A program made the position numbers and the translations under genes. Below are positions 34,290-41,845 of a stretch of DNA of 64,000 bases, piece by piece. The stretch is from Crocinitomicaceae bacterium (GTDB lineage Bacteria > Bacteroidota > Bacteroidia > Flavobacteriales_D > Crocinitomicaceae): the NCBI GenBank assembly GCA_030730025.1, contig JANQWC010000012.1, forward strand, positions 18,235-82,234, in the 5' to 3' direction. Position 1 is the first letter of the stretch, and the number at the start of each line of letters is the position of its first letter. The notes beneath the pieces were generated by a model. It was not told the origin of the DNA. It searched no databases and saw nothing but the letters and a program-made list of their open reading frames with translations.

Positions 34290-35477
34290 TTATAGACGAT
34301 CAAGAGCCGAAATAATAACTTTCACTGCTAAATCCCATTCTTCTTGCGCTAAATTGAGCGGTGGCGACAAGCGAAAACTATACGGATGAGACAAGAACCA
34401 GAAGGTGATGAGCCCTTGTTCTAGGCAAAAATTGACAACTTTTTCGACTTCATCTGCCGATGCTAAATCGAAGGCGAACATAGCGCCAGCTCTGCGGTGC
34501 GCCCGAACAGCTGGATGCGCCGCAATTTGCGCCGCAAAAACGGCTGCGCGCGCTTCGAGTGCAGCCCAGTCGATTTCGCTGCGCAGCACCTCAACGGTAG
34601 CCGCAGCTGCTGCACATACCATGGGGTGGCCGCCAAAAGTGGTGATGTGCCCGAGCATGGGCGCATGTGTAAACAGCTGCAGGTGTTGTTGCGCCGCCAC
34701 AAGCGCGCCAATTGGCATACCGCCACCAAGCGCCTTGCCCAAAGCGAGTATATCGGGGACAATATCAAATTGTTCAAAAGCAAATAAGCTGCCAGCGCGG
34801 CCCATGCCGCATTGGATTTCGTCGAGAATCAGCAAGGCGCCCACTTCGGTGCAACGCGCGCGCAGCGCTTGCATGAAGGCGGCCGAAGGCCGCCGCACCC
34901 CGGCATCGCCCTGAATGGTCTCCATAATGACTCCGGCTGTTCGGTTGGTAATTTGATCCAGTGCAGCGATTTCGTTGTGGGGCAAAAACCGCACATCGGG
35001 AAGCAAAGGCCGAAACGCAATTTTCTTGACCTCGTTGGCCGAAACGCTCATGGCGCCATGGGTGCTGCCGTGGTAACTGCCCTTGAAGGCTACAAGTTCT
35101 GTTCTTCCGGTGGCGCGCTTGGCCAACTTGAGCGCAGCTTCAATGGCTTCTGTACCTGAATTCACGACATACACACCGTCTAAAGCAGCCGGCAATGTGC
35201 TCAGCAACTGGCGCACCAAATTTTGCTGCGCATCTTGGATGAATTCACCGTACACCATCACGTGCAAGTGCTTTTCTAGTTGCGCACTGAGTGCCGCCAC
35301 CACTTTTGGATGCCTATGACCGATGTTATTGACGGCCACACCAGCAATCATATCTAAATAGGCCTTGCCGTTTTTGTCGTAGATAAAAGCGCCCTCTGCA
35401 CGATCGACTTCAATCAGAAAAGGAAAAGGACTTGTCTGACCCAAATGGTTCAGGAAAAATTGGCTTTCGTTGGTCAT
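34290..35477 (-). CDS. Class III PLP-dependent aminotransferase (acetylornithine/ornithine type)
   Basis: A 395-residue fold-type I enzyme. The PLP-lysine segment is LALGKALGGGMPIGAL, preceded by the Asp in LILDEIQCGMGRAG. The VVNSGTEAIEAALKLAKR and KGSYHGSTHGAMS segments belong to the acetylornithine/ornithine/4-aminobutyrate group. The true substrate is not clear because no arg genes flank it. The gene overlaps pafA by four bases, an odd pairing. Base composition is notably GC-rich: for example 34501-34560 is about 65 percent GC by my count, compared with an estimated mid-40s around it. Confidence 0.88.
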   Translation of the reverse strand: MTNESQFFLNHLGQTSPFPFLIEVDRAEGAFIYDKNGKAYLDMIAGVAVNNIGHRHPKVVAALSAQLEKHLHVMVYGEFIQDAQQNLVRQLLSTLPAALDGVYVVNSGTEAIEAALKLAKRATGRTELVAFKGSYHGSTHGAMSVSANEVKKIAFRPLLPDVRFLPHNEIAALDQITNRTAGVIMETIQGDAGVRRPSAAFMQALRARCTEVGALLILDEIQCGMGRAGSLFAFEQFDIVPDILALGKALGGGMPIGALVAAQQHLQLFTHAPMLGHITTFGGHPMVCAAAAATVEVLRSEIDWAALEARAAVFAAQIAAHPAVRAHRRAGAMFAFDLASADEVEKVVNFCLEQGLITFWFLSHPYSFRLSPPLNLAQEEWDLAVKVIISALDRL

Positions 35478-37117
35478 TTTTTAGGTTGCAAGAGCGGTAA
35501 GATGGGTTTGCCCGTCATCGAGCCCGGACGTTGTAGGTTGAGCATGTGCACCAAAGTGGCAGAAATATCAATGATCTGAATGGGCTCGTACAGCGCCAAA
35601 CCCGCAGGAATGCCTTTACCATACCACAATAAGGGAACATGGGTGTCGTAATTAAAAGCCGAACCATGTGAAGTACCCTGATGCGCTTTGGGTTCGTCGT
35701 GGTCTTTGGCTAAATAACCTGGCTGTAACAAAAAGATGAGCTCTCCACTTCTTTGGGCATCGTAACCATTGCGCAACAGCTCGCCCCAATAATCTGTGCT
35801 CGCCGAACCAGAACGCAATTGTTCGCGCGTCAGCACCGTCTTGACCTCCGGCCATTTGCGCAACTCGGCCGCAGCAAAAGCAGCAACCTCATCGATATCG
35901 AGGTGCAAAGAATCGATTTTAGCCAGATTGAGGTAAATATTCTGATTGGTCTCGTGCTCGAGCAAATCGGCGTTGTATTTCATGATGAAGTCGTCGCGGA
36001 GCACTTGCAGGCGGTCGTGCATAAAGAAATAACCACCCGGCATCTTCATCTTAACCAACATTTCTGGAACCGGCACCACGGCATGATCTGCCGTCAAGAA
36101 CAGTACAAAACCGTCCTTGCCGTAGCGCGTCTCTAAGCTTGCAAATAAGCGCTGTAATTCGCGATCGAGGCGCGCATACATGTCTTCGAGTTCTCTTGAG
36201 TAAGGGCCAAAGGCATGGCCAGCGATATCCGGAGTAGAATAAGAAATACATAAAAAATCGGTAAACAAATCTTGGCCTAAATTTTCTTGTTCGAGGGCCG
36301 AAAGGGCAAAATCTGTAAGCACTTCGTTGGCTTGTGGAGAAATGGTGAACAAAGAGGTAGCCGACGCCCCTGCAGCGATCATTGAGGGAAAATCGTAGGG
36401 AAAGGTCGCGCTTGTTTTGCCGCTGAGCACCACTTCATAAGGGCTTTCATCGGCCATCAAATAAGTACTTTCGGGCAAGAGCAAACGCCAAGGGCGCAAA
36501 TCTTTGGCAGGATCAAACTTGGAATTGAAGCGCTCCACCCAGTTTGGCAAGGCTTGTTTGTAAAACGTACTCGTGACAAAATCGCCGGATTGGTAATCGA
36601 ACCAATAGCTCCCATCAGAAAGATGCCCTCCTGGTAAAATCGCACTGCGGTCCTTGATTGAAATAGAAATGACTTTTGACTGAGGTGAAGCCAACTTGAG
36701 CTGGTCGGTGATGGTGTAGGTTAGTAAATTCATGGGTGCAGCTTGACCGCCTGTTGCGCTTCCAACGGTTTGATAGCGCTCATCTGAAACGCTTGTGACT
36801 GTTTTTTGTTTGTCTCTGAGGTACCAATCGTTGCCAACAATACCGTGATTTGAGGGGGTTGTGCCCGTGTAAATAGAGGCATGGCCCGGAGCGGTGTAGG
36901 TCGGGACGTAGTTGTATTGTGTATTGCGACAGTTGGTTCCTTTTGTCAGCAAGCGATTGAAACCACCACTTGTGTAGAGGTGCTGGTAGCGATAGAGGTA
37001 GTCGTAGCACATCTGATCGATGACGATACCTACAACAATTTTTGGGGCTTTATCAGTTTGGGCTTGAAAGCCAAACACATAAGCAAAAAGGAATCCGAGT
37101 AGCAGTGTTTTTTTCAT
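35474..37117 (-). CDS. Alkaline phosphatase of the PafA type
   Basis: A 547-residue exported metallophosphatase of the alkaline phosphatase superfamily. A signal peptide ends near FGFQAQ (about 20). Asp34 in IVIDQM, the nucleophile Thr75 in TAPGHASIYTG, Asn96 in IVGNDWY and Lys155/Arg157 in SIKDRS correspond to the PafA set (Thr79, Asn100, Lys162, Arg164 in the Elizabethkingia enzyme). The later DHA and TSHGS segments supply metal-binding residues. It is a phosphate-monoester hydrolase of the periplasm or outer surface. It heads a two-gene operon. A consensus promoter lies four bases from its ATG. Confidence 0.92.
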   Translation of the reverse strand: MKKTLLLGFLFAYVFGFQAQTDKAPKIVVGIVIDQMCYDYLYRYQHLYTSGGFNRLLTKGTNCRNTQYNYVPTYTAPGHASIYTGTTPSNHGIVGNDWYLRDKQKTVTSVSDERYQTVGSATGGQAAPMNLLTYTITDQLKLASPQSKVISISIKDRSAILPGGHLSDGSYWFDYQSGDFVTSTFYKQALPNWVERFNSKFDPAKDLRPWRLLLPESTYLMADESPYEVVLSGKTSATFPYDFPSMIAAGASATSLFTISPQANEVLTDFALSALEQENLGQDLFTDFLCISYSTPDIAGHAFGPYSRELEDMYARLDRELQRLFASLETRYGKDGFVLFLTADHAVVPVPEMLVKMKMPGGYFFMHDRLQVLRDDFIMKYNADLLEHETNQNIYLNLAKIDSLHLDIDEVAAFAAAELRKWPEVKTVLTREQLRSGSASTDYWGELLRNGYDAQRSGELIFLLQPGYLAKDHDEPKAHQGTSHGSAFNYDTHVPLLWYGKGIPAGLALYEPIQIIDISATLVHMLNLQRPGSMTGKPILPLLQPKK

Positions 37118-37202: not shown

Positions 37203-38570
37203 ATGAAACAAATCTTACCAATTTTAATGCTCGCGCTCAGCTTTTTGAGCTTCAACAACGCCCGTGCACAATTTGTCGTGAACGTCATTACGGTTGACTG
37301 CAGTGGCCCAGGCGTATGCGATGGCTATGCCATGATCGACTCTTCAAACACCATCAATTTTACTTCTGTACTTTGGTACATGAACGGCACCCTCATTCAA
37401 AATGGAGGCAATGCAATTTATAACCTTTGCGCCGGAACATATTCTGTCAATGCAATGGGTGGTGGTCTTACCCTCACTTCTCCGTTTACAATCGGCACGG
37501 GCACACCAAATCCGTGTGCAGGGCTTGGCATGAACATTTCCGAAACTATGGCGAGTAGCCAAAACGTTTGTGACGGCAGCATTACCGTGAGCGTTTATGG
37601 AGGTACCGCACCTTATACGTATCAAATGAATGGCGCGCCAATGACTGGCCTTCCTAGTTTCAATAACTTGTGCGTAGGCACCTACAACCTTTTTGTTACA
37701 GACGCCAATGGCTGTACGGTGAGTCAGGCCGCAAATATTTTCTACGACACCACAAGCACCAATCCTTGTGCTGGTTTTTATCCGAGCGTAACCGTCACAG
37801 ATTGCAGCGCACAAGGTGCTTGCGACGGCGCTATTGATATCTCTTGCGCTACCTGTGCTCCATTTTATGTCGTATGGAGTCAAGGATCAACAACCTACGG
37901 AATCAACAACTTGTGTGAAGGCAATTATTCTGCTGTGGTAACAGATACCAATGGCTGCTCGTTCAGCACTACCCAATTCGTGGGCTACAACGGTGGCGGC
38001 AACATCGACAGCATCAATGTGGTTGGTACGCTTGCTACGGGTGGCAACATCACTGGTATACTTATGTCTAACTGGATTTACAACTGTGACATCGACATGT
38101 CTATGCTCGACACCGCTTATATGGTTTCAGCTACTTTTGGCAACAACCCAGCCAACCAAGACAGCTTGTATACCGTATGGTACATGGCTGATACAACCGG
38201 TGCGTTTACGTACATCAACTGTGCGTTTTATGCTCCATTTGCTGTAGGCACTTATAATTTAGTACTTCAAGTGTACTGCCCCATCAAATCTACCCCAATA
38301 TACTACAACATCATCACACAATTCGATGTCCAAAGTGCTGGTATAGGTTCTTTTGCTCCTGTTGCACTTTCGCTTTCACCGAACCCGGTTCAAGATGTCC
38401 TTTCTGTTCAAGGGCTTGAGAACGCTACTTACGCGATCTACAACCAAGCGGGTCAAGTACTTCAAGCTGGTGACTTCAAGACCCAAATCGATGTACGCAA
38501 CTTGGCCAATGGCAGCTACTTTGTCCAACTCAATGGCCAAATGCTTCCCTTCATTAAAATGCATCAATAA
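37203..38570 (+). CDS. Secreted SprB-repeat-like protein with type IX sorting tail
   Basis: A 455-residue exported protein. A signal peptide ends near NARAQ (about 23). Residues 24-270 hold about three Cys-containing repeats of SprB type, recognised by DGSITVSVYGGTAPYTYQMN and VGTYNLFVTDANGCT, and by the later EGNYSAVVTDTNGCS. The last 66 residues (390-455), beginning SLSPNPVQDVLSVQG and ending with FIKMHQ, form a type A C-terminal sorting domain. SprB repeats occur in the gliding adhesin SprB, but this protein is far shorter, so it is likely a surface or released protein. It ends at a strong bidirectional terminator. Confidence 0.88.
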   Translation: MKQILPILMLALSFLSFNNARAQFVVNVITVDCSGPGVCDGYAMIDSSNTINFTSVLWYMNGTLIQNGGNAIYNLCAGTYSVNAMGGGLTLTSPFTIGTGTPNPCAGLGMNISETMASSQNVCDGSITVSVYGGTAPYTYQMNGAPMTGLPSFNNLCVGTYNLFVTDANGCTVSQAANIFYDTTSTNPCAGFYPSVTVTDCSAQGACDGAIDISCATCAPFYVVWSQGSTTYGINNLCEGNYSAVVTDTNGCSFSTTQFVGYNGGGNIDSINVVGTLATGGNITGILMSNWIYNCDIDMSMLDTAYMVSATFGNNPANQDSLYTVWYMADTTGAFTYINCAFYAPFAVGTYNLVLQVYCPIKSTPIYYNIITQFDVQSAGIGSFAPVALSLSPNPVQDVLSVQGLENATYAIYNQAGQVLQAGDFKTQIDVRNLANGSYFVQLNGQMLPFIKMHQ

Positions 38571-38600
38571 GCGTTCAAAAACTAGAAACGCTCTCCAACG

Positions 38601-38630
38601 AAAAGGGCCCGCATAGCGGGCCCTTTTTTT
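38601..38630. terminator. Bidirectional intrinsic terminator
   Basis: AAAAGGGCCCGC pairs with GCGGGCCCTTTT around an ATA loop and continues into a T run on the plus strand; the complementary strand gives a matching run for the convergent VWD gene. Confidence 0.92.
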
Positions 38631-38652: not shown

Positions 38653-40257
38653 TTATCCTTTGCCAGATTTGACAGCTGGCATACTTGGCTTTGGTGTGGG
38701 TGCTGCTGGTCTTGGCGCTACTGGAGTACTTGGTTTTGGAGACACAGGAGCGCTTGGCCTCGGCGCTGCCGGAGCACTTGGCTTGGATACAGTTGGTTTA
38801 GGATTGACTGATTGTGTCGGTCTTGGTGAAACAGGTTCTCTTGGTTCGGCAGGTTTTGAAATCGAGTTGCCTTTGTCTTGTGAGTTAGGTTTCTCGGCGT
38901 TTGTATCAGGTTTGCCCATCGTTTGCGGACGGTTGGCTGGGTGCTTACCTTCTGCAAAGGTGTGCGCGTTGTTATTGAGAGCCGGACGCTCTACTTTATT
39001 GAGAACAGTACCTATTGGGTTAGGAACATTGGGGGTTGGCGGTACATTGGGAGCAATATTGAGATAGCCTTGGTCATAAATACAGCCACCCATTTCATCT
39101 GCCGGCACGCCCATTTGCGCGCAGCGTTGGCGCGCTTGCTCGCGGCTTTGGGCATCCATTTGTGAAATATTCATGTGCACTCTCGGAAAACTTCTGTCGG
39201 TAAAATAGGCTGTTGTGGTACCGGGGCGATAGTCAAAGAGCGTGGTGTTGTCGGTCACGCGCCAGTCTTCGGCAAAATTTTTGGCCAAGTACGCTTGGAA
39301 CTCTTGTTCGGCTAAACTATTGATTTGCGCCGCATCTCTCGAATCAAAAGCATAGGCAGAGGCAACGGAAAGCGCAGCAATATTGTTGGGGCGCGGCATA
39401 TTGGTGCGGCTATTGAAATCGTCGTCGGAGAAGCCATTGTTGTTGCCCAAAAGGCCTTCGTATTGGTTGCGGTCGCAATCAAAGATGCCAACCGTTACAT
39501 TGACAAAACCGCGCGCGCCAGAAGTGCGCACATCGATAACCGTAGTTTCGCCAGTTGGCCAAGCAATGGTATAATTGCGACCATCTAGGCGAATGACGCC
39601 GCCATGAGGAAGGTAATAACTTCTGCCTTGCAACTGAATTGGTTGGCCATTGAGGCGCAGTGGTGTTTGTTGGATGTCGTCTGGTTTATCGGCGGCATAA
39701 AAGCAAAGCCGGTCGCCAGCGATGTTCATGGCCACTGCCGCATTTAAGGAGAAATTCTCGTCTTGGGCGCGCTGACGCGTTTGCACTTCAAATAAACCAT
39801 TGTTGTTTTTGGACAAAACAAATTCACCTACCGTTTGAAATGAATAGGTTGCGCGGTCATAGGATTTTAAATGTGGGTCTCCGTAGGAGCGGCCATACGT
39901 TCGGCTGCAAAAACTATGCTCGAGCAGGGCTGCAAAAACGCCGTAATCCGTATTTTGGCTGTTGTTTGTGCTGGCCACACGTTGGTTTTCAAGCACCATT
40001 TGGCGGAGGTCTTGGCGTTCTTTGGCCGGGATCATGCTCAGCATTTCGTAGGGCGTAAAGTCTTCGGGGAAGGTGCGGTCTGGAATGGCTTGCTTGGTGG
40101 CCAGCGCCTGAATGGCTGCAGCTAACCAAGCGCCTCGGATGTCGTCCCAGCGTTCGAGGTGTTCTTTAATGGGGGAAAAAGCAGCACTAGGCGCTTGTGC
40201 AAAATGTTGGTTTACAAGCAGGCAGCAGCCTACAAATAGAAGTATTGATTTTTTCAT
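38653..40257 (-). CDS. Exported VWD-domain protein with proline-rich tail
   Basis: A 534-residue protein with a signal peptide (1-20, ending HFAQ). Residues 25-115 are a helical region of unknown type. From about 120, SYGDPHLKSYDRATYSFQTV starts a von Willebrand factor D-like domain, with GEFVLSK and later GLLGNNNGFSDDDF as characteristic strands; it ends near 300. A further stretch of about 100 residues precedes a tail (about 400-534) with many Pro, Ser, Lys and Ala residues in short repeats such as SAPAAPRPSAPVSPKPS. No sorting domain for type IX secretion is visible. Function is unknown; VWD domains often mediate adhesion. A TAATTTTG element lies upstream at 40298-40305. Confidence 0.8.
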   Translation of the reverse strand: MKKSILLFVGCCLLVNQHFAQAPSAAFSPIKEHLERWDDIRGAWLAAAIQALATKQAIPDRTFPEDFTPYEMLSMIPAKERQDLRQMVLENQRVASTNNSQNTDYGVFAALLEHSFCSRTYGRSYGDPHLKSYDRATYSFQTVGEFVLSKNNNGLFEVQTRQRAQDENFSLNAAVAMNIAGDRLCFYAADKPDDIQQTPLRLNGQPIQLQGRSYYLPHGGVIRLDGRNYTIAWPTGETTVIDVRTSGARGFVNVTVGIFDCDRNQYEGLLGNNNGFSDDDFNSRTNMPRPNNIAALSVASAYAFDSRDAAQINSLAEQEFQAYLAKNFAEDWRVTDNTTLFDYRPGTTTAYFTDRSFPRVHMNISQMDAQSREQARQRCAQMGVPADEMGGCIYDQGYLNIAPNVPPTPNVPNPIGTVLNKVERPALNNNAHTFAEGKHPANRPQTMGKPDTNAEKPNSQDKGNSISKPAEPREPVSPRPTQSVNPKPTVSKPSAPAAPRPSAPVSPKPSTPVAPRPAAPTPKPSMPAVKSGKG

Positions 40258-40297: not shown

Positions 40298-40305
40298 CAA
40301 AATTA
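40298..40305 (-). promoter_or_regulatory. -7 promoter element of the VWD gene
   Basis: Minus-strand TAATTTTG lies 40 bases before the ATG and overlaps the stop of the upstream response-regulator gene. No TTG at the usual distance. Confidence 0.45.
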
Positions 40306-40974
40306 TTCGTTGAACTTGTAACCGATTCCTTTGATAGTAGAAATATAGTGATCGCCAATTTTTTCGCGGATTTTACGGATGTGGACATCTATTGTGCGGT
40401 CGCCGACAATGATCTCTGTACCCCAAACTTTTTCTAAAATTTGCTCGCGCTTGAACACAAAATTAGGACGCGATACCAAGAGGGCGAGCAATTCAAATTC
40501 TTTGCGCGGAAGTTGCAGTTCTTTACCGTCTTTTTCGAGGAGGTATTTTTCGCGGTTGATGTGAAAACTTGGGTTGGGTTGTTCAATAGGCTTGTTGTGC
40601 TTGCTGCGGCGCAACATGGCTTGAATGCGCGACAACAACACTTTGGTTTTGATAGGTTTGGCGATGTAGTCGTCTGCACCAGCATCTAAGCCTGCGATCT
40701 GGCTGTAGTCTTCGCTGCGGGCAGTGAGAAAGCAAATGAGGATGTCTTGGTATTGTGCATCTGCTTTGATGCGCTCACAGACTTCAATGCCATCGAGCAC
40801 CGGCATCATGACATCCAATAAGATAAGCGTTGGTTTTTGTTTTTGAATAAATTCCATGCACGCCATGCCATCTGCAACAGCATCTACATGATAGCCTTCT
40901 TTTTGCAGATTGTATTGCAGCAATACGCGGATATCTTCTTCGTCGTCTACAATAAGAATGTGTACTGGATTCAT
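40303..40974 (-). CDS. OmpR/PhoB-family response regulator
   Basis: A 223-residue two-domain regulator: receiver (1-120) with acidic residues Asp10/Asp11, phosphoacceptor Asp54 in LLDVMMP, Thr84 and Lys106, then a winged-helix DNA-binding domain (about 130-223) with RKEFELLALLVSRPN and DVHIRKIREKIG. The arrangement is PhoB-like. No histidine kinase is adjacent on either side. It faces another response regulator at 41156 across 181 bases. TAACTTTA lies four bases before its ATG. Confidence 0.92.
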   Translation of the reverse strand: MNPVHILIVDDEEDIRVLLQYNLQKEGYHVDAVADGMACMEFIQKQKPTLILLDVMMPVLDGIEVCERIKADAQYQDILICFLTARSEDYSQIAGLDAGADDYIAKPIKTKVLLSRIQAMLRRSKHNKPIEQPNPSFHINREKYLLEKDGKELQLPRKEFELLALLVSRPNFVFKREQILEKVWGTEIIVGDRTIDVHIRKIREKIGDHYISTIKGIGYKFNE

Positions 40975-41155: not shown

Positions 41156-41845
41156 ATGAAAATCAAAATCCTCATGGTAGAAGACGATATCAGCCTTGGT
41201 ATCGTTGTTTCAGATCAGCTCAGAGCCGATGGCTATGCCGTTACCCTCTGCGAAAACGGTGCAGAGGCCCTGCGTCGCTATCAAGAAGAGCCATACCATC
41301 TCTGTATTTTTGACGTCATGTTGCCGGTCAAAGACGGGTTTACCCTCGCCCGAGACATCCGCAAGCAAAATACCGAAATTCCCATCTTGTTTCTGTCGGC
41401 ACGCAGCCGCACCGAAGACAAAATAGAAGGCTTCAATGCAGGTGCCGACGACTACCTCACCAAGCCTTTTAGCGCCGAAGAATTACAACTGCGGGTCAAG
41501 GCGCTGCTCAAAAGAGTCAAATTACAACCCGATTCTCAGGAAGTCAAAGTGGTCAAAATTGGCCTCTATACTTTTGACACCGAAAATTTTACTTTGCAGT
41601 CGCCAAGTCAGTTGCTCACCCTTACCAAAAAGGAAGCGATGATTTTGCGCACCCTCTACAAATTCAAAAACCAACTCATCCCCAGAGATGTTATCCTCAA
41701 TTCAGTATGGGGACAAGACGACTACTTTGTTGGGCGCAGCCTAGATGTCTTCATTACCAAGTTGCGCAAGTACCTCAAAGAAGACACGAGCATCCAAATC
41801 AATAACGTGCACGGCGTCGGTTTCAAGTTCGAGTGTCAAGAATGA
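41156..41845 (+). CDS. OmpR-family response regulator (RprY-like)
   Basis: A 229-residue regulator with receiver (1-120: acidic pair at 10-11, phosphoacceptor Asp53 in IFDVMLP, Ser81 in place of the usual Thr, Lys103 in LTKPF) and a winged-helix domain with LTKKEAMILRTLYK and GRSLDVFITKLRKYLKED. It resembles the RprY group of Bacteroidota, which normally has a partner kinase RprX; none is adjacent here. It overlaps tsaB by four bases (ATGA). Confidence 0.9.
   Translation: MKIKILMVEDDISLGIVVSDQLRADGYAVTLCENGAEALRRYQEEPYHLCIFDVMLPVKDGFTLARDIRKQNTEIPILFLSARSRTEDKIEGFNAGADDYLTKPFSAEELQLRVKALLKRVKLQPDSQEVKVVKIGLYTFDTENFTLQSPSQLLTLTKKEAMILRTLYKFKNQLIPRDVILNSVWGQDDYFVGRSLDVFITKLRKYLKEDTSIQINNVHGVGFKFECQE

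Follow-up and report, generated by a model that had tools for sequence, protein, structure and literature searches.

The window analysed here is a 64,000-nucleotide stretch of contig JANQWC010000012.1 from a Crocinitomicaceae bacterium (assembly GCA_030730025.1, 1.78 Mb and 81% complete). The family, one of aquatic bacteria, lies within the Flavobacteriales of the Bacteroidota and includes Fluviicola. At 38653-40257 on the minus strand, the window carries an ORF of 534 aa with an ATG start, and all of its parts are read from that strand. A Sec-type signal peptide recognised by sequence inspection (residues 1-21, 40195-40257; MKKSILLFVGCCLLVNQHFAQA), for which the cleavage site is a prediction, precedes a Crocinitomicaceae-specific helical N-terminal domain (residues 22-112, 39922-40194; WDxxRGxWL ... 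PDRTFPEDFTP). These are followed by a VWD domain (residues 125-286, 39400-39885; Pfam PF00094, E=1.7e-9), a C-terminal module (residues about 305-402, 39052-39345; WRVT..LFDY...FTDRSFP...C...G......CIYD, in alignments A1 and A4), and a basic tail rich in Pro, Ser, Lys, and Ala that ends in SGKG (residues 406-534, 38656-39042; pI 10.6). A sequence-only reading had given the order as signal peptide, helical domain, VWD, and Pro-rich tail, and this order holds. The parts it named are correct, but it did not separate the C-terminal module and missed four conserved cysteines. It had also found no known role for the layout, and indeed no Pfam or NCBIfam family assigns a role to the protein.

The reading further saw no type IX sorting signal, in agreement with the absence of any sorting-domain match in NCBIfam or Pfam; without a C-terminal Por_Secre_tail, the protein was rejected as a type IX cargo. 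A lipoprotein was rejected as well. Cysteines at signal-peptide positions 11 and 12 occur in only 13 and 10 of 121 aligned ORFs, respectively, so there is no conserved lipobox. A beta-lactamase match (E=0.012) fell far below its cut-off.

Directly upstream of the VWD gene, across a 45-bp gap, is an OmpR/PhoB-type response regulator (40303-40974, minus strand). The same order on the same strand is found in the window and in 27 of the 28 named-relative loci for which an upstream ORF is listed (the exception is L080), and the gap measures 39-45 bp in 25 of those 27. Co-transcription of the two genes is a suggestion. The named relatives (n=30) are all metagenome-assembled genomes, many of them sequence-identical to genomes of the window's genus; they are labelled Crocinitomicaceae (13), Flavobacteriales (9), Cryomorphaceae (3), Chryseobacterium gleum (2), and Flavobacteriia, Bacteroidetes, and Sphingomonadales (1 each). 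The Sphingomonadales label and both Chryseobacterium labels look misnamed. From the labels as a whole, we take the family surveyed here to be the Crocinitomicaceae. In 20 loci of other genera, the response regulator is missing from the upstream position, and the VWD gene therefore has no constant partner; an operon partner was rejected, as no neighbour was common across genera in these 20 loci. In the window, the regulator is one of two divergent OmpR-type response regulators (40303-40974 and 41156-41845), whose best NCBIfam matches are PhoB-like and RprY-like, both below cut-off. On the downstream side, a strong 13-bp hairpin with a T tail (38600-38628), which matches the consensus, lies between convergent genes and is likely a terminator shared by both. 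The convergent gene (37203-38570, plus strand) encodes a type IX cargo protein with an SprB repeat and a Por_Secre_tail (TIGR04183), and beyond it is a PafA-like alkaline phosphatase (35474-37117, minus strand; NCBIfam E=2.2e-174, with 581 bits where the cut-off is 650).

The VWD-like domain suspected from the sequence was confirmed by profile, with PF00094 scoring 38.6 bits (cut-off 22.9) over profile positions 4-155 of 156. Pfam also recognised a VWD in all 32 members of alignment A1 (E<=0.5), and the Crocinitomicaceae profile matched PDB chains of FCGBP, mucins, and VWF, including FCGBP 8rde_A at E=9.3e-31. The GLLGNNNG stretch (residues 268-275) opens a calcium-site-like loop, GLLGNNNGFSDDDF (residues 268-281, 39415-39456); among the 121 aligned ORFs, N272 is kept in 115, D280 in 114, and N274 and D279 in 105 each. 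The other hallmark of the domain is GDPH (residues 126-129, 39871-39882). The sequence-only reading listed this motif only as a VWD signature and did not notice that GDPH is a published self-cleavage motif (PMC10880436). In VWDs of FCGBP, MUC2, and RGM, cleavage breaks the Asp-Pro bond of the motif; the substitutions D4080A/N and H4082N in FCGBP D10 block this reaction, and Q4094A/E reduce it to partial (PMC10880436). In the protein described here, D127-P128 is the sole Asp-Pro bond and the predicted site of self-cleavage. The motif aligns with the GDPH of FCGBP, and its position between predicted strands is seen only in a low-confidence model. Q141 (39835-39837), at Asp127+14, is the counterpart of FCGBP Q4094, with the spacing D127-P-H...Q141 equal to D4080-P-H4082...Q4094. 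The cleaved FCGBP chain 8qci_B has its residue 1 at profile position 106, the Pro of GDPH, in a weak whole-chain match (E=0.013), and the FCGBP chains 8r0t_C (E=3.6e-6) and 8r0t_B (E=0.47) also start at that position.

Conservation was assessed in a set built from 153 core-profile ORFs. Removal of exact or contained copies and of lengths outside 400-1000 aa left 121 aligned ORFs, and exclusion of L090, from a distant genus, left 120 from the Crocinitomicaceae; these are related sequences, and the counts are not independent events. G126, P128, and H129 are invariant (120/120), and D127 is found in 115, with Glu in the other five. Q141, C117, and C261 are each kept in 119, the exception in every case being L050. 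This copy is degenerate: its GLLGN loop is missing too, and a Gln stands one place later. Judged from this alignment, chance is excluded as the origin of the VWD/GDPH pattern, since only 11 of 384 core columns are invariant, among them G126, P128, and H129. The VWD columns D134, G144, G219, G236, and G268 are invariant too. GDPH could be conserved for the sake of folding only.

Variation at the motif is informative in this respect. We compared the VWD loci of 8 of 13 matching plasmid records: five (L158, L159, L162, L163, L164) have GDPH with Gln at +14, two (L160, L165) have GDVH with the Gln kept, and one (L161) has GDPN with Asn at +14. A viral contig (L152) carries GDPH and Gln. All four distinct copies in the distant Bacteroidota genus have GDPH; position +14 is Gln in one of them and His in the other three. 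Domains of MUC5B and MUC5AC have GDFH, GGAH, GDGH, or GSFH at the place of GDPH. Because other VWDs vary at Pro and His, these residues are dispensable for the fold, and their invariance in the Crocinitomicaceae is not simply forced by it; we regard this as informative rather than decisive. The five GEPH ORFs (L048, L051, L149, L150, L143) should not cut as GDPH does. In a FastTree tree, four form a clade (support 1.0) and L143 lies elsewhere. Four of the five come from genomes that encode a GDPH copy as well (G102, G027, G043, G135), a pattern that fits an altered function of the duplicate; L150 comes from G094, which has one match.

Four cysteines of the protein are conserved: C117 (39907-39909), C261 (39475-39477), C379 (39121-39123), and C392 (39082-39084). 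Of the 120 Crocinitomicaceae ORFs, 108 have both C379 and C392, two have one of them, and 10 have neither; all of these 10 retain C117 and C261. The latter two were lost jointly once, in L050. These joint losses suggest the pairs 117-261 and 379-392, the first of which would span the predicted cut. C117 lies 9 residues before GDPH and C261 lies 7 before GLLGN, whereas in the alignment FCGBP has one cysteine 4 residues before GDPH and another within GLCGN. In FCGBP, the cysteine before GDPH pairs with that of GLCGN. As GLLGN lacks this canonical cysteine, the disulfide proposed here would sit at other positions than its eukaryotic counterpart, and a C117-C261 clamp would be a local solution.

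The C-terminal module with the second cysteine pair is not restricted to the family. Its profile matches directly behind a VWD in Cyanobacteriota, Deinococcota, and Pseudomonadota (5.6e-27 to 6.4e-11), with half a module only in Thiothrix L164 and two fragments (4e-4) in Jannaschia L160. In the distant Bacteroidota genus, three of four copies match more weakly (1e-5 to 6e-5) and the fourth is cut short. No convincing PDB or Pfam match was found for the module in 58 Crocinitomicaceae copies. Its cysteines resemble the C8 domain end, 'C-x12-C-x-x-D'. A C8 domain was nevertheless rejected, as PDB and Pfam give it no support: C8-3_MUC4 is touched by one of the 58 modules (E=0.77), and 32 full cores have no C8 or TIL match (E<=0.5). 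With no C8, TIL, or E domain recognised after the VWD, the arrangement differs from the mucin/VWF D assembly. It likewise differs from human FCGBP (PDB 8QCI, 8RDE), which has 13 VWDs against a single one here and ties its strands with cysteines placed elsewhere (GLCGN rather than GLLGN), despite the VWD profile match and the identical register of GDPH and the Gln at Asp+14.

Repulsive guidance molecules (RGM_C, PF06534) offer another comparison, since in them, too, a short segment comes after a VWD with GDPH. However, every RGM_C match seen here stays under the 27-bit Pfam cut-off, the best being Nostoc L158 with 23.0 bits (4.7e-5 at full length, 0.015 for the module region alone). In three proteins, namely L158, L159 (0.018), and L036 (0.0081), the weak match lies in the C-terminal module and covers RGM_C positions about 174-226, a late part of that profile. 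Nine of 32 Crocinitomicaceae members touch RGM_C, with a best E of 0.0041 and 15.7 bits (L036) as the best score seen; when 13 members were scanned singly, six touched it, and in five of these six the match was confined to the start of the VWD. Plasmid loci L162, L163, and L165 have no RGM_C match at E<=1, and the 58 isolated modules show no family-wide match. A common origin of proteins carrying this module and repulsive guidance molecules is, on these profile scores, a lead and not a result.

Structure prediction, which the sequence-only reading had proposed, was informative for one part of the protein only. AlphaFold2, with an alignment depth of 26-27 sequences, modelled the N-terminal domain confidently as helical (pLDDT averaged over ten-residue blocks is 62-91 for residues 1-100 of the mature protein), but the VWD poorly: the whole core model averages 50.5, and a 193-residue VWD crop averages 45.0. 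A fold search with the low-confidence VWD model gave MUC5AC (Z 3.8) and MUC2 (Z 3.5) over 112 residues, tied with unrelated entries, and Foldseek with this model returned nothing at E<=0.001. For the N-terminal domain, no PDB or Pfam relative was found, with Pfam E values of 0.037-0.22 in single members only. A likeness to ferritin was rejected, Z 3.8 being at noise level for helical bundles.

The layout is not an isolated oddity: it is widespread in the Crocinitomicaceae, and the VWD with its C-terminal module occurs in three other phyla. The protein was matched in 147 of 200 Crocinitomicaceae genomes (E<=0.001), in 109 of the 145 good ones, and in 14 of 24 genera, mostly as one copy per genome, with a few matches weak or partial. 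Some matches near E=1e-3 (such as G181, 5.4e-4) may be compositional, because in the window's own genome a second match of the whole protein (E=9e-4, in a frame of 1541 aa) is confined to the tail region and seems to reflect a Pro-rich composition common to both. In L074, the ortholog is broken into two frames, which could mean that it became a pseudogene recently or that the assembly is faulty there. Across the class, the 32-row profile matched 6 of 295 genomes, all Crocinitomicaceae; across the phylum, it matched 5 of 296, two from the window's genus and three from the distant genus g193, where the VWD sits in frames of 1563-3001 aa. Pfam VWD alone found the same five genomes among 395 of the phylum, and VWD is thus rare in the phylum outside the Crocinitomicaceae. 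The sequence-only reading wanted the pairing of N-terminal domain and VWD sought in other genomes. A search with the N-terminal domain alone matched 21 of 100 genomes from the order, each time inside a VWD-bearing frame. These are 21 of the 24 Crocinitomicaceae sampled and none of the 76 others, so the domain is confined to this family as far as the order is concerned. A viral origin was rejected, with one weak locus in viral contigs.

The sequence-only reading saw repeated xPxP units in the tail and took it for a flexible or cell-wall-associated linker; a cell-wall role is conjectural. In the 120 Crocinitomicaceae ORFs, the tails have medians of 131 aa (73-255), 19% Pro, and pI 10.0 (4.9-12.0). 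Lys or Arg occupies one of the last two residues in 104 of them, and two contain cysteine. In the window, the tail DNA includes an imperfect 24-bp tandem array (38707-38786, 3.4 copies, 68% matches). A short basic C-terminal end (GKG, GGR, RGG) recurs despite the spread in tail length, for example at 38656-38667. In Bacteroidota, D[ST]x is an O-glycosylation motif. An O-glycosylated, mucin-like tail was rejected, as tails contain D[ST]x less often than cores do, with 0.04 against 0.10 per 100 aa.

Taken together, we lean towards a reading in which the VWD protein is exported and cuts itself between D127 and P128 into a two-chain form held by a disulfide, a proposal drawn from the residue pattern and the analogy with FCGBP. 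The VWD would fold outside the cytoplasm and then cut its own bond, with the Asp127 side chain attacking its own carbonyl and His129 and Gln141 assisting, as proposed for FCGBP. The products would be an N-terminal chain of 12.0 kDa (residues 22-127, the helical domain and first beta-strand) and a C-terminal chain of 44.5 kDa (residues 128-534, the rest of the VWD, the C-terminal module, and the tail). An inter-chain C117-C261 disulfide would hold them, while C379-C392 would close the module. Precedents exist, as the cleaved first strand of FCGBP is retained by a disulfide (PMC10880436) and, according to an excerpt of PMC6696261, SUSD2 fragments remain disulfide-linked; cysteine variants of SUSD2 are reported to stop cleavage. 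What GDPH cleavage achieves in animal VWD proteins has yet to be revealed (PMC10880436). In the bacterial protein, it would lock the domain into a protease-resistant form, and by analogy with FCGBP it probably serves to stabilise. Export and domain type point to a predicted surface or matrix protein, whose basic, Pro-rich tail may tether it flexibly to an anionic polymer of the surface or matrix. Among the matches listed for CC-licensed PMC titles and abstract openings, none reports self-cleavage of a bacterial VWD; an excerpt of PMC4620155 treats the binding of von Willebrand factor as well as a type A domain, not a VWD.

A less probable explanation, though one to be taken seriously, is an ordinary one-chain VWD adhesin that stays uncut and binds a surface or matrix, in which the GDPH turn and its hydrogen bonds shape the domain and the basic tail is flexible. 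The equally conserved columns D134, G144, G219, G236, and G268 and the retention of the fold in the five GEPH ORFs agree with this, and an eLife paper infers adhesion of bacterial vWD from animal ones (excerpt of PMC12419801). What speaks against it is that Pro and His, kept in 120 of 120 Crocinitomicaceae ORFs, vary elsewhere (GDVH, GDPN, GDGH, GDFH, GGAH), and that GDPH is accompanied by Gln at +14 and by a conserved cysteine on either side of the cut. The proteins treated in that paper, myxobacterial ones combining vWD, zincin, and prok-SAA, are secreted like the present protein, and the authors call them the first bacterial example of a vWD. However, they carry peptidase and toxin-like domains, and in the excerpted text autoproteolysis is ascribed, as a suggestion, to the peptidase and not to the vWD (PMC12419801).

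We think it improbable that GDPH is instead the target of a host-cell protease, or is cleaved only when the medium turns acidic, so that the tail-bearing chain is freed from the N-terminal domain in a regulated way. Some precedent comes from partial accounts of SUSD2, where the serine-protease inhibitor Pefabloc blocks GDPH cleavage (PMC6696261), so that the reaction may not be autocatalytic everywhere, and of MUC2, whose GDPH is uncut in CHO cells and needs acid (PMC10082768); by the same token, pH may prevent cleavage of the bacterial VWD. The response regulator upstream in near relatives hints at regulated expression, but it is absent in the 20 loci of other genera. In addition, the two conserved cysteines flanking the cut would hold the chains together, and FCGBP data and simulations favour self-cleavage (PMC10880436). 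Very improbable, in our estimate, is a protein in which the tail is the functional part, its basic Gly-Lys-Gly or Gly-Gly-Arg end serving as a sorting or anchoring signal with the VWD as cargo. Such a signal would account for the 82 of 120 tails in which G[KR] either closes the sequence or is followed by nothing but a few G, K, or N residues, across lengths of 73-255 aa and at a median pI of 10.0. However, no known sorting domain matches, the ends vary between ORFs (GKG 50, GGR 15, RGG 8, GKN 7), and no neighbour is conserved across genera.

Should the preferred self-cleavage reading hold, VWD self-cleavage chemistry would not be confined to animals. With a small, mostly single-copy bacterial homologue, it would be possible to abolish cleavage in living cells; the Crocinitomicaceae include cultured genera, and the GEPH paralogues are possible natural uncut controls. 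More tentatively, Asp-Pro self-cleavage of VWDs may be an old chemistry common to bacteria, which here, with a purpose-built disulfide and a tail, would yield a two-chain extracellular protein. As an Asp anhydride is named for FCGBP cleavage in an excerpt of PMC9354016, such an anhydride could even link the protein covalently to amines of a surface or matrix. The proteins of other phyla that share the C-terminal module (Nostoc L158, L162, L165; Deinococcus L159; Azospirillum L163; Pseudoalteromonas L161; Thiothrix L164) differ from the Crocinitomicaceae ones in their partners, which, where scanned, are VWA7_N, RHS, RTX, Calx-beta, and NIDO. Their sequences do not match the N-terminal helical domain at E<=1, and L158 lacks a cysteine at the place of C261. 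A combination of NIDO and VWD occurs in MUC4, and some of the bacterial proteins recall animal ones: on a Nostoc plasmid (L158), the VWD is joined to VWA7_N, and in Azospirillum (L163), it is joined to NIDO.
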